From contig JAFPAQ010000228.1 in the NCBI GenBank assembly GCA_017424235.1, forward strand, positions 1-33,347: DNA of 33,347 bases, in the 5' to 3' direction. Both the position numbers and the translations under genes were made by a program. The notes under the pieces were generated by a model. The model was not told where the DNA came from and did no database searches. It worked only from the letters and a program-made list of their open reading frames with translations. The DNA comes from Lachnospiraceae bacterium (GTDB lineage Bacteria > Bacillota > Clostridia > Lachnospirales > Lachnospiraceae). Below, piece after piece: positions 23,080-27,979 of the stretch. Each line of letters opens with the position of its first letter. Positions within the stretch are counted from its first letter, which is position 1.

Positions 23080-23115
23080 GTTGAATGACCCGCCAAAAAT
23101 GGTGCATCGTTCAAC
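23080..23115 (+). repeat. 36-bp palindromic repeat, copy A (next to cas2)
   Basis: The repeat begins GTTGAATGACCC and ends GCATCGTTCAAC, 36 bp. It can fold with a 6-bp outer stem (GTTGAA/TTCAAC), G:U and further pairs, an inner CCA/TGG stem and an AAAA loop. It is identical to copies B and C. An AT-rich 66-bp stretch separates it from cas2. On the right it runs directly into a truncated IS1182 transposase frame. Right flank is AAAAC, as in copy B. Confidence 0.9.
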
Positions 23116-23530
23116 AAAACTTTATCAGCCAGAGACAGCTTTCCTACGAAAACATCATGAGCGAAACGGGAACCAGGTATCGTATGAATCGTTCCATCCA
23201 GGTAGAAGGCGCCTTTGGGGTGCTGAAAAATGATTATGATTTCCAAAGATTTCTGCTCCGTGGGAAAACCAAGGTAAAACTGGAGATTCTTCTGCTGTGT
23301 TTTGGCTATAACATCAATAAACTCCATGCCAAGATTCAGAATGACAGGCTGCGCAGTTACCTGTTTCCACTAAAAACAGCTTAGAGATGACATGGAAAAA
23401 AGAGACCTTTATTAAAGTACGCAAAAAATCAGGAAGTAACTTCTAAAAACGAAGTTTTCCCTGATTTTTATTTCAGAAAAAGAAGGAGCATCGCTCCATA
23501 ACTAGAATTTAGTTATTTTGCGACACTCCC
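23116..23530 (+). pseudogene. IS1182-family transposase remnant
   Basis: The frame reads QNFISQRQLSYENI and then YRMNRSIQVEGAFGVLK and LLCFGYNINKLHAKIQ, the C-terminal end of an IS1182-family transposase, stopping at 23384. The first three quarters of the gene are missing: the frame is cut exactly at the palindromic repeat. An intrinsic terminator and a right terminal sequence (GGGAGTGTCGCAAAATAAC on the minus strand, ending at 23530) follow, so the right end of the IS seems preserved while the left is gone. Confidence 0.75.
23424..23469 (+). terminator. Intrinsic terminator in the IS1182 remnant
   Basis: AAAAATCAGG (23424-23433) pairs with CCTGATTTTT (23460-23469), with an inner AACTTC/GAAGTT stem, followed by T-rich sequence. 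Confidence 0.75.
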
Positions 23531-23729
23531 TTTTTTCGTCTTGTAGTAGGTGGAAAGACAAAGCGAAGAAAAAGAGGGTTCGAGACAAAGTAAGAAGCTC
23601 TTGAGTATGAGCGACAAAAGAAACTGAATAACAGCAGAAGCATGGATATGAAGCACCGCTTTCCTAGAATTCAGATGCAAAATAACGTCTGTTATGATAT
23701 ACTCAATTCGAAATAAAAGGGGCTTAAAC
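23531..23729. other. Stretch without a supported gene
   Basis: Between the IS1182 end and the SAP-like remnant no start, ribosome site and frame combination is convincing. An open frame at about 23601-23717 has protein-like composition but no recognisable family; it may be another remnant. Confidence 0.35.
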
Positions 23730-23830
23730 TTGCAGGAGAAAATACAAATTAACGAAAGACCGGAATTGAATAAAGAATTAGATGGGAAACATTTAGAAGT
23801 TTTTATTATTTAAAGGAAGTAGAAAATGAA
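23730..23830 (+). pseudogene. Frameshifted N-terminal remnant of a SAP-domain-like protein
   Basis: The sequence encodes NERPELNKELDGK and, after a one-base shift in an A-tract near 23788, TFRSFYYLKE. Together they recall the N-terminus of small SAP/DUF6434-type proteins (pattern ERPELDK-DGK-F-YYLKEEL). The rest of the gene is missing. This is pattern memory from a short piece, so the family name is tentative; the shift between two compatible frames is visible. Confidence 0.4.
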
Positions 23831-25431: not shown

Positions 25432-25463
25432 AGTTCATTTATGAGCTATTCCATTCTATAAAA

Positions 25464-27485
25464 TTATACCTTAAATCGTTTAATCAGCTGTGTTAAGTTC
25501 GAAGCCTGATTTGCGAGCTCCTGTGAAGTTGACTCGTTTTCTTCCGCTACTGTAGAGTTCTGTGAAATTCCTTTCGAAATGTCTTCTACCCCGCGTAAAA
25601 TCTGCTGCATGTCTTCCGCCTGAGTTCTTGCTGTATCCGCAGTTTCAAGAATTGTTCCATTCACTTCTTCAAACGCTTGTGAAACTTCAAGCAATGCCTC
25701 TTTCACTTTTTCAGCTGTTTCATTACCTTTTTGAATCTCTCCAATTGAGATTTCGATTAATTGTTTTGTATTGCTTGCAGCTCTTGAACTTTCATCGGCA
25801 AGTTTTCCAATTTCATCGGCTACTACCGCAAAGCCTTTGCCTGCTTCGCCAACTCTTGCTGCTTCAATTGATGCATTAAGTGAAAGCAAGTTTGTCTGGC
25901 TTGCAATTACTTCGATTGTCTGAATGATACCCACAACTTCCTGTGAAGTTTTCTGGATATTGTCCATCGCAAGCATCATCTGGTTCATGAGTTCCTGATT
26001 TACTTCCATCATCGAAGTAACTCGAACAGTTTCCTGTGCAGACATCTCTGCTTTTTCTCTGTTCTCTTCTACTTCCTGCGAAATCTTATTTGCGATTTCA
26101 ATTAATCGCTCGATTTCTTTTGCCTGATTGCGGGCACCTTTTGATACTGTCTGTGAGATTTCTGAAAGTTCTCCAGATTCTCTAAGTACGATGTCCGCGC
26201 CTTCATTAATACCAACGATTACGCTTGTTAAGCCTTCTGTAATACCGTATAAAGCCTCCTTAAGTCTTGCAAATTCACCAACATAGTCGTACTGAAGTTC
26301 AAACTTAAGATTACCTTCTGAAATTTCATTTAATACCGCTGATACTTCATTGATGTAAACAATATATTCTTTTAATCGTTCAACTGTCTTACCTATGTAA
26401 AACGCCAACTCACCAATTTCGTTCTGAGAAGATGTTGTTAAATCTACATCGAGTCTTCCTGCTGCTAATTTTTCAGCGATGTCCTTTAACTCAATAATTG
26501 GTTTACTGATTTTCTGTGCGCTCTTCTTAATACTGAAAAATACCATGAAACATGCAAGCCCAACCAATAAAACAAGGCTTACGAGGCAGAAAATAATTGG
26601 CTGATAATATTCGCCAGCTGGTAATACACTTAATACCATGTATCCAGTTTCGCCTACTTTTGCGAAATGACCATATTCTGTGCTATTTCCGAACTTGATT
26701 CTCATAGAACATGGAGTCTGGTTTAAAACTGCATCGATCGCTTCTTTGTTAACCGATAAATCTGCCATATTCATTAAGATAATTTCTGCGGTTGGTGCAT
26801 ATGCTACTCCACCATTTGGTGAAAGAAGAATCGAAAATCCGTTTGAACCAATTCTATACTTTGCCATGATTTCTGCAATCTTGCTTAATTTAACATCTAC
26901 ACCAGTAATACCGATTACGTTTTTGTTACTATCAAAAACAGGGCTAGCAATACTAATTACCGCTTCCTGCGAATCCGAATACTGCTGATATGGTTCAGAG
27001 AATACGGGTTTTTGCTTGTCTACACATGAATACCACTCATAAAGTGCAGCATCAAATTCCCCTACTGATGTGTAGCCATTCGACATAATAACACTTTTAG
27101 AATCGAGGTCAACAACCCATGTTGTTGCAACCGCATCTGCATTTGCATCCACTAAGTTTCTTAACTGCTGAATATTACTTGCATAAGTTGGATGCATTGA
27201 AATGTTGGAACCCGCACCATTTCCTAACAACATCTGCTGGATTTGAGGACTTACCGCCAAGTTTTCTCCAATCGCAATGTATGGTCGGAAAAAGTCGGAG
27301 GTTTCCCATGCCGCAACTTCTGATTCCAAACTAATTTCTGTACTATTTGCGTTATTAATAGTTACTGTCATAATAGCGCCAATAATCGCCGATGCGATTA
27401 AAAGGAACACAATTATGTTTCTTCCGATCTGTACACTGATCTCTTTTTCAATTTTTGTTGTATTCGTTTTCTGCTTTCCACCCAT
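25464..27485 (-). CDS. Methyl-accepting chemotaxis protein with Cache-type sensor
   Basis: The 673-aa receptor has a first membrane segment (about 24-46), an extracellular double-Cache-like domain (about 50-290, with ATTWVVDLDSKSVIMSNGY and VIGITGVDVKLSKIA), a second membrane segment (about 298-320), HAMP (about 322-375) and the cytoplasmic signalling domain with the hairpin tip around VVADEIGKLADESSRAA. It ends in ANQASNLTQLIKRFKV. The start is ATG at 27483-27485, or the TTG before it; GGGGGG lies upstream. It sits with spoIIID inside the second repeat-bounded block. Its ligand is unknown. Confidence 0.92.
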   Translation of the reverse strand: MGGKQKTNTTKIEKEISVQIGRNIIVFLLIASAIIGAIMTVTINNANSTEISLESEVAAWETSDFFRPYIAIGENLAVSPQIQQMLLGNGAGSNISMHPTYASNIQQLRNLVDANADAVATTWVVDLDSKSVIMSNGYTSVGEFDAALYEWYSCVDKQKPVFSEPYQQYSDSQEAVISIASPVFDSNKNVIGITGVDVKLSKIAEIMAKYRIGSNGFSILLSPNGGVAYAPTAEIILMNMADLSVNKEAIDAVLNQTPCSMRIKFGNSTEYGHFAKVGETGYMVLSVLPAGEYYQPIIFCLVSLVLLVGLACFMVFFSIKKSAQKISKPIIELKDIAEKLAAGRLDVDLTTSSQNEIGELAFYIGKTVERLKEYIVYINEVSAVLNEISEGNLKFELQYDYVGEFARLKEALYGITEGLTSVIVGINEGADIVLRESGELSEISQTVSKGARNQAKEIERLIEIANKISQEVEENREKAEMSAQETVRVTSMMEVNQELMNQMMLAMDNIQKTSQEVVGIIQTIEVIASQTNLLSLNASIEAARVGEAGKGFAVVADEIGKLADESSRAASNTKQLIEISIGEIQKGNETAEKVKEALLEVSQAFEEVNGTILETADTARTQAEDMQQILRGVEDISKGISQNSTVAEENESTSQELANQASNLTQLIKRFKV

Positions 27486-27943
27486 CAAGATTTGCCCCCC
27501 TATGTGATTTTGTCACAGTCTCCGTTTCACTATTATACCACAGGGTATTACTTTTAGCAAATAAGTACTGATTTTTCTCTCCTTCGTTTGCCTCTTCATC
27601 AAATACAACAAGAAATTCCTTTAACACTTCTTTTGTCAGATATCCACCTCTCCAATGGAATAAAAGAATTCTGCCTTTCTTAACCGCCTGCTTTGTTCGA
27701 TTTCGAACCTCATCCACGGTCGTCCAGGAAATTTTCTTTTCTTTGTAGTAAAAATGCTCGCCGTCGGTACACGCTGGCACCTTCCAGATGACCGGCTCAT
27801 GATCTCTGAAAATCTGCTTATCCGACAAATTCACATAATCATATCGCACGGTGTCATCTTTTGAAAGGGTGTTGTCAAAGGTCGCATCGAGATGATAATA
27901 CTGACCGTCAATACGAATTACATTCCATGCATGGCGATACTTA
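27448..27943 (-). pseudogene. Transglutaminase-like protein, 5' end lost at the repeat
   Basis: The frame KYRHAWNVIRIDGQYYHLDATFD holds the histidine and aspartate of a transglutaminase-like catalytic site; the cysteine-containing N-terminal part is missing. Coding sequence is cut directly at palindromic copy C (27944), which supplies an accidental start (MLNDAPFLAGHS). The C-terminus overlaps the chemoreceptor start by 38 bp in another frame. The gene was therefore complete elsewhere before being joined to the repeat. Confidence 0.75.
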
Positions 27944-27979
27944 GTTGAATGACCCGCCAAAAATGGTGCATCGTTCAAC
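27944..27979 (+). repeat. 36-bp palindromic repeat, copy C
   Basis: Identical over 36 bp to copies A and B and in the same orientation, 2,945 bp from copy B. It is preceded by TTA, like copy B, but followed by ATACC, unlike A and B. It borders the truncated transglutaminase on the left and transposon right-end sequence on the right. Confidence 0.9.

Follow-up and report, generated by a model that had tools for sequence, protein, structure and literature searches.

An orphan Cas1-Cas2 module of Lachnospiraceae as a probable capture system for gene-sized DNA

In this study, we analyzed a cas1-cas2 locus in a 33,347-nucleotide stretch of DNA from a Lachnospiraceae bacterium (assembly GCA_017424235.1, contig JAFPAQ010000228.1, positions 1 to 33,347; hereafter the window), where the gene pair is followed by a leader and three copies of a 36-bp repeat, R, that enclose two kilobase-sized inserts (Table 1). 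The three copies of GTTGAATGACCCGCCAAAAATGGTGCATCGTTCAAC are identical (0 mismatches, all on the + strand), with 0 expected in 100 shuffles. An earlier reading of this DNA from its letters alone (the sequence-only reading) had described three same-orientation repeats, the first of them 66 bp past the cas2 stop codon, two repeat-bounded blocks, and repeat ends able to pair; the positions were confirmed, the blocks measured 1,883 and 2,909 bp, and R is predicted to fold into a hairpin (DNA parameters; z of −3.1 on the + strand and −1.7 on the − strand). That reading had proposed that an orphan Cas1-Cas2 takes up long DNA, and several findings support this: an isolate has the site in its empty state, relatives carry different blocks there, one array has grown next to its leader, one insert can be matched to phage DNA with exact borders, and Cas1 keeps its catalytic residues. 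We consider it likely, with a probability of roughly 0.8, that an orphan adaptation module of the clustered regularly interspaced short palindromic repeats (CRISPR) type, consisting of cas1-cas2, a leader, and a 36-bp repeat, integrates DNA of ∼0.1 to 3.3 kb at the leader-repeat junction and duplicates R in doing so, giving an integron-like gene-capture array.

Table 1. Features of the array and its carrier element in the window
Feature	Positions	Strand	Remarks
cas1	21806..22711	+	type II family; E147, H202, E217 align with the type II catalytic triad
cas2	22708..23013	+	lacks the FDLP aspartate of ordinary type II Cas2
Promoter-like site	22985..23014	+	TTGGCA-18-TATAAT, extended −10; over the cas2 end, pointing into the array; consensus match only
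Leader	23014..23079	+	13 bases adjoining R conserved among 27 loci
Repeat R1	23080..23115	+	leader-proximal; 36-mer GTTGAATGACCCGCCAAAAATGGTGCATCGTTCAAC
Insert 1	23116..24998	+	1,883 bp; cut transposase, DUF6688 gene
Repeat R2	24999..25034	+	36-mer GTTGAATGACCCGCCAAAAATGGTGCATCGTTCAAC
Insert 2	25035..27943	+ (interval)	2,909 bp; spoIIID, chemotaxis receptor gene, cut transglutaminase-like gene; genes all on − strand
Repeat R3	27944..27979	+	distal; 36-mer GTTGAATGACCCGCCAAAAATGGTGCATCGTTCAAC
Downstream flank	27980..28396	+	common to the window and the empty Flavonifractor element (L160)
HTH (helix-turn-helix) regulator gene	20964..21767	+	carrier element
Mob_Pre relaxase-family gene	17174..18025	−	carrier element
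Serine recombinase gene	15229..16854	−	carrier element

Both blocks of the window have a border that cuts a gene. Insert 1 opens, as had been claimed, inside a transposase frame, a cut DDE frame that matches PF13751 and is IS1182-like, the latter under that model's cut-off. For insert 2, which had been said to end inside a transglutaminase frame, the cut frame was confirmed and the name is weakly supported: a transglutaminase-related lipoprotein model matched only below its cut-off, and a Pfam search of the frame gave no match. Homologous DNA from other genomes extends to the border of this block at 70 to 73% identity. Chemotaxis receptor genes lie in inserts of the window (25467-27488) and of locus L162 (9928-11742), and DNA resembling the window's receptor gene lies in an insert of L029 (15657-17660).

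When related elements were compared for the presence of each block, a check that the sequence-only reading had put forward, an empty site was found in the isolate Flavonifractor sp. AGMB03687 (L160). It carries the same mobilizable element with the leader, one R, and then the flank 'caaattataccctctcc', aligning to the window over positions 15129-17989 (92.3% identity), 20628-23119 (94.7%), and 27944-28396 (88.9%). The R-block-R-block-R of the window occupies exactly the position of this single R, and no further R follows in L160 over 11.4 kb. Other blocks occupy the same site in the isolate Fusibacillus kribbianus (L161; two blocks), in L162 (three), and in L069 (one). Growth at the leader end is seen in the pair L103 and L028, with the orders leader-R-293 bp-R-block X and leader-R-block X-R-flank, respectively: R plus block X are 99.8% identical over 1,095 bp, and the extra unit of L103 adjoins the leader, where CRISPR adaptation also places new units. 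These arrangements also bear on the idea that contigs were misjoined through a CRISPR repeat and phage-matching spacers. Misjoining would suit the facts that most of the loci come from metagenome assemblies and that several copies of R sit at the end of a contig; however, such intervals also occur in complete replicons (Campylobacter coli p13786 and E. eligens ATCC 27750) and in isolate drafts (Fusibacillus), and identical flanks bound different blocks in several genomes, so that we find this idea barely credible. An assembly chimera was rejected on the strength of the complete replicons and the exact empty site.

The host genome (3,027,771 bases, with the window as contig C223) holds, at up to 3 mismatches, no R beyond the three of the window, and the count of the 36-mer that had been suggested as a check thus places every copy in the array. 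At the same threshold, R is carried by 8 of 299 genomes of the same taxonomic family (the window's included), one of which has eight copies in a row, spaced 285 to 1,761 bp apart. A degenerate-pattern scan of GTDB contigs returned 71 stretches, 42 of them titled Lachnospiraceae; R was also found twice in IMG/VR and in three plasmid records (one from Campylobacter coli and two megaplasmids of E. eligens), and none was found in INPHARED phages. In each of the two IMG/VR phage contigs, R occurs once, as an exact copy close to one end of the contig (L043, position 8371; L044, position 221). For the comparison, R was searched as three variants, allowing no gaps and at most 8 mismatches to any one of them; once duplicates had been removed, this gave 137 R in 75 stretches, which come from 71 contigs. 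Left out before R and inserts were counted were L110 (same contig as L158) and L151, L156, L157, and L159 (no R, or a stub); contigs with several identifiers were counted once, except for L053/L074, L057/L105, L080/L081, and L101/L117, each one contig with two loci, whose split intervals are not among the R-R intervals given below. At least two R are present in 34 of the 75 stretches and one in the other 41, several of these at contig ends, in split arrays, or directly past cas2. R lies directly behind cas2 in 27 loci, with a further R in the same stretch in 21 of them; in three of the remaining six, less than 0.7 kb of the stretch is left.

Successive R define 62 intervals, of which four (L026_1, L089_1, L089_2, and L100_1) were removed because they contain cas or leader sequence. 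The remaining 58, the cargo intervals, range from 68 to 3,267 bp (median, 959 bp), and none is near 30 bp; the control loci with an ordinary type II Cas1, seven from genomes that also carry R and one from a Subdoligranulum plasmid, all had an array period of 65 to 67 bp (8/8). These lengths bear on the view that R is a dispersed palindromic repeat, akin to repetitive extragenic palindromes (REP) or miniature inverted-repeat transposable elements (MITE), or the remains of a normal array, with the blocks arriving by homologous recombination or later insertions. Lone mid-contig copies of R exist and the repeat forms a predicted hairpin, both of which this view would explain, but no R is reversed within any stretch (0 of 137 in 75 stretches), the host has no copy outside its array, no cargo interval has the length of a normal spacer, and an element with a single R stands empty; we regard it as very improbable. 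The scatter of copies away from cas1-cas2 that had been named as telling against capture was found on a small scale only, as roughly nine lone R, compared with three host copies in the array and 27 loci with R behind cas2. A further impression of the sequence-only reading, that the peptide VERCTIFGGSF read from the complement recurs elsewhere, proved right for another array (L026), for the reason that R itself is there.

R is more alike within than between arrays (96.4% compared to 90.3% identity across all 34 arrays, and 95.3% compared to 85.9% across the 20 variant arrays), a pattern consistent with each new R being copied from the leader-proximal R, with relatedness also contributing. The proteins next to these repeats form a distinct family. 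In the window, Cas1 matches the type II model TIGR03639 of NCBIfam with 239.7 bits (cut-off, 120) and Cas2 matches TIGR01573 with 50.3 bits (cut-off, 24.5). Residues E147, H202, and E217 of Cas1, which correspond in alignment to the type II catalytic triad, are retained in all 26 sequences examined, of which three are partial (solved relatives were compared). The 12 full-length family members form a monophyletic group against 11 ordinary Cas1 sequences (support, 100/100) on a long branch, with the long-branch warning for this tree applying to the ordinary rows. Between the window and L160, cas1 has a nonsynonymous divergence (dN) of 0.008 and a synonymous divergence (dS) of 0.083; between the window and L161, these values are 0.006 and 0.151. 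The FDLP aspartate of Cas2 is absent in 8/8 family members and present in 7/7 ordinary proteins. The distance from cas2 to R is 66 to 80 bp in 26 of the 27 loci (66 bp in the window) and 106 bp by aligned end in L155, whose cas2 alignment ends 10 residues early; the 13 bases preceding R are alike in all 27, the loci from which this motif was derived and in which it is scored. A promoter-like site with at least 9 of 12 matches lies in the same place in 23 of the 27 loci, many of which are close kin, and part of it is coding DNA of cas2; L118 has a weaker version, and another match is better in L149, L049, and L095.

Integrons comprise IntI, attI, cassettes with attC, and the Pc promoter, and attC sites travel with their cassettes. 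Our arrays share with them gene-sized inserts lined up at one site, a promoter-like site at the head, a bias in the direction of open reading frames (ORFs), and resistance genes in the cargo, and they differ in that the repeat is copied from the array instead of being borne by the cassette, that many inserts cut genes, and that no cassette exchange between arrays was seen here. One may also ask whether R is itself an attC-like recombination site used by a tyrosine or serine recombinase, with cas1-cas2 as a bystander, since the arrays are cassette-like, R is palindromic, the ORFs are strand biased, and a serine recombinase is encoded in the window's carrier element and a phage-type integrase on the contig. 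Against this, L149 and L152, in chromosome-like settings, keep the family cas1-cas2 and R with no recombinase gene among the 13 neighboring ORFs scanned, R is homogeneous within arrays, and R keeps its near-constant distance from cas2 beside the leader motif; such a site has, in our judgment, only a slight chance of being the explanation. No IntI-type recombinase was found among the ORFs scanned around the array of the window, L149, and L152; the contig's tyrosine integrase lies 14 kb from the array and was not assessed as IntI. The attC reading was rejected on account of repeat homogeneity and the two settings without a recombinase.

The cargo is diverse and includes phage head genes, chromosomal-type genes, and genes for an ATP-binding cassette (ABC) protein, a glycosyltransferase, acetyltransferases, and aminoglycoside phosphotransferases. 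Complete ORFs of 75 or more amino acids occur in 34 of the 58 intervals, and ORFs of this size that are open at a border occur in 26 (both in 10). Of 55 intervals, 43 have their longest ORF pointing away from the leader (P = 3e-5), and counted by array the direction is away in 25 compared to 4, with 3 ties; insert 2 of the window is an opposite case, reading toward the leader. The ends of 57 of the 58 intervals (one insert of <100 bp was excluded) have a roughly symmetric bias, with A at +3 in 37/57 and T at −3 in 35/57 and none of 5,000 random draws as high, which perhaps reflects an end preference of the integrase.

The same mechanism of integration could serve another purpose, in that the inserts would be oversized immune memories, that is, long spacers. 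Internal pieces of phage head genes among the inserts and the border-open ORFs fit this explanation, whereas the complete ORFs, the bias away from the leader, and the aph and acetyltransferase genes in the cargo do not, nor does the distribution of Cas9, which scored above cut-off in 7/7 genomes with an ordinary type II system and in 0/15 without one. In all seven, G334 included, Cas9 lies beside an ordinary Cas1; three of the 15 have sub-cut-off hits, and two of these (G096 and G115) have R arrays and no Cas1 match. The host genome gave no match for Cas9, and window positions 18000-29000 gave none in Rfam. We rate long spacers as unlikely while keeping them in view as a minority possibility. 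The choice between gene platform and memory is less certain than integration as such: complete genes and strand bias favor a platform, and cut phage genes leave room for memory.

Donor DNA was matched end to end for a 505-bp insert of Fusibacillus (L161); both ends of this insert are open, and its match is to a family of phage capsids. Three IMG/VR phage contigs contain it (L172, 505 bases at 96.8% identity; L171, 504 at 96.6%; L173, 505 at 90.7%), with phage DNA continuing beyond both borders of the match and no R in the fetched donor stretches. In the prophage of genome G233, the final 263 bp of one insert recur at 97% identity in another part of the contig, with the similarity stopping exactly at R, whereas the beginning of this insert matches nothing else there. 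Past the last R, C. coli and a rabbit-gut Lachnospiraceae bin both have the start of the commonly occurring sat4-aph(3')-IIIa segment. Other searches gave less: the L103 insert in 397 family genomes and plasmids, the L026 array in INPHARED phages, and Cas1 in IMG/VR were without result; for the L062 and L050 inserts, IMG/VR gave nothing closer than partial or distant relatives, for L149 two weak partial relatives, and for L026 none. Apart from itself, L162 insert DNA had only partial homologues and R in 12 genomes, and the C. coli insert had, among the plasmid matches listed, relatives of ∼82 to 85% identity over 57 to 62% of its length.

Taken together, the capture of long DNA by the orphan module would proceed by integration at the leader-R junction, for which Cas1-Cas2 would be the enzyme, and each integration would duplicate the repeat, yielding leader-R-[insert-R]n with the newest insert adjoining the leader. 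Separation from Cas9, the prespacer trimmer in type II systems, may have removed length control, and the array could serve as a platform for captured genes, with the promoter-like site at the cas2 end driving their expression, by analogy with integron cassettes and Pc. In Streptococcus pyogenes, Cas1-Cas2 alone is reported to have integrated unprocessed substrates in vitro, and the Cas9 supercomplex to have trimmed substrates to ∼30 bp (PMC8034620).

Several observations weigh against this account. The same study reports that trimming requires Cas9 in vitro but that cells can do without it (PMC8034620), so that the absence of Cas9 is a plausible cause of the missing ruler but may not be enough by itself. 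Growth at the leader end is seen in one pair only, in which L103 has no distal R past block X, and an end-to-end donor was found for one insert only. For the blocks of the window, the donor loci that the sequence-only reading had hoped to locate were not found among 397 genomes: 18 and 34 genomes matched (its own included), the others only as partial homologues at 66 to 91% identity. Roughly nine lone mid-contig R have no cas gene in the fetched stretch and are unexplained (L035, L056, L060, L070, L116, and a few others); they may be relics, off-target integrations, or chimeric contigs. L047 and L158 have no second R within the 4.7 and 2.3 kb to the contig end, and the DNA past their R is not the usual flank. 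Finally, a promoter scan of the region was unenriched (8 compared to 6.3 in shuffles), and the G233 prophage and C. coli have a truncated Cas1.

With ordinary type II CRISPR-Cas adaptation, the module has in common a type II Cas1 with Cas2, a leader abutting a 36-bp repeat, duplication of the repeat, and growth at the leader end (the L103/L028 pair); it differs in the length of its inserts, which are not uniform at ∼30 bp, in having no cas9 beside it, and in a Cas2 without the FDLP aspartate. Casposons are Cas1-solo transposons in which Cas1 integrates long DNA, and they are self-moving, with terminal inverted repeats and PolB. Long DNA integration by Cas1 is shared with them, whereas here Cas2 is present and foreign DNA is captured at a fixed site; neither PolB nor terminal inverted repeats appeared among the ORFs scanned, no search having been aimed at them. 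The closest report that we found is of erm(N) inside a Campylobacter coli CRISPR-Cas9 array, where a resistance gene also lies between CRISPR repeats, and which differs in having one kind of insert, an ordinary Cas9 locus, another repeat, and ∼30-nt spacers (PMC11823653). Nothing similar is mentioned in the available text of a 2024 review on CRISPR in mobile elements (PMC11656645), and in the literature covered, which excluded preprints and most subscription papers, we found no description of such a system. The array functions like an integron, is related to CRISPR adaptation, and fails defining features of both the integron and the CRISPR-Cas system.

With less assurance than for capture itself, we lean toward a wider picture of a CRISPR-derived integron. 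Here, orphan Cas1-Cas2 would be a general machine for capturing kilobase-sized genes from phages, chromosomes, and resistance loci, with arrays expressed from a promoter inside cas2 and travelling on phages, mobilizable elements, and plasmids, and with captured resistance genes delivered as far as Campylobacter. CRISPR adaptation is usually seen as a maker of ∼30-bp memories, and a lineage that stores kilobases would make Cas1-Cas2 a gene-capture system in its own right. It would allow the determinant of spacer length to be tested in a natural Cas9-free system, would suggest a route other than the integron for the assembly of resistance-gene arrays in gut bacteria, and would provide an integrase from nature with which long DNA might be inserted or recorded.

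The module shared across carriers consists of cas1, cas2, the leader, and R, and the carriers comprise the serine-recombinase/Mob_Pre element of the window, a prophage, conjugative and large plasmids, and chromosome-like settings. In the window, the carrier element contains an IS21-like insertion (istA and istB; 17989-20628) that is absent from L160, L161, and L162. The prophage of G233, with tail, holin, and endolysin genes, has a further R ahead of an N-terminally cut cas1 and cas2 (L026, 10189-11345), as if the module had itself been captured as an insert. Two cas2 copies in tandem (L100, 4986-7985) and two leader-R junctions in tandem (L089, 3200-6780) probably represent duplicated or nested modules. 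In the conjugative C. coli plasmid p13786 (L045, 20001-22426), an N-terminally cut cas1, cas2, the leader, R, an insert, and R are followed by aph(3')-IIIa DNA, the insert holding an acetyltransferase gene plus aph(2'')-Ii. Its cas1-cas2 and leader have 99.8% DNA identity to those of the rabbit-gut Lachnospiraceae bin (L082), and because of this identity the array seems to have crossed phyla.

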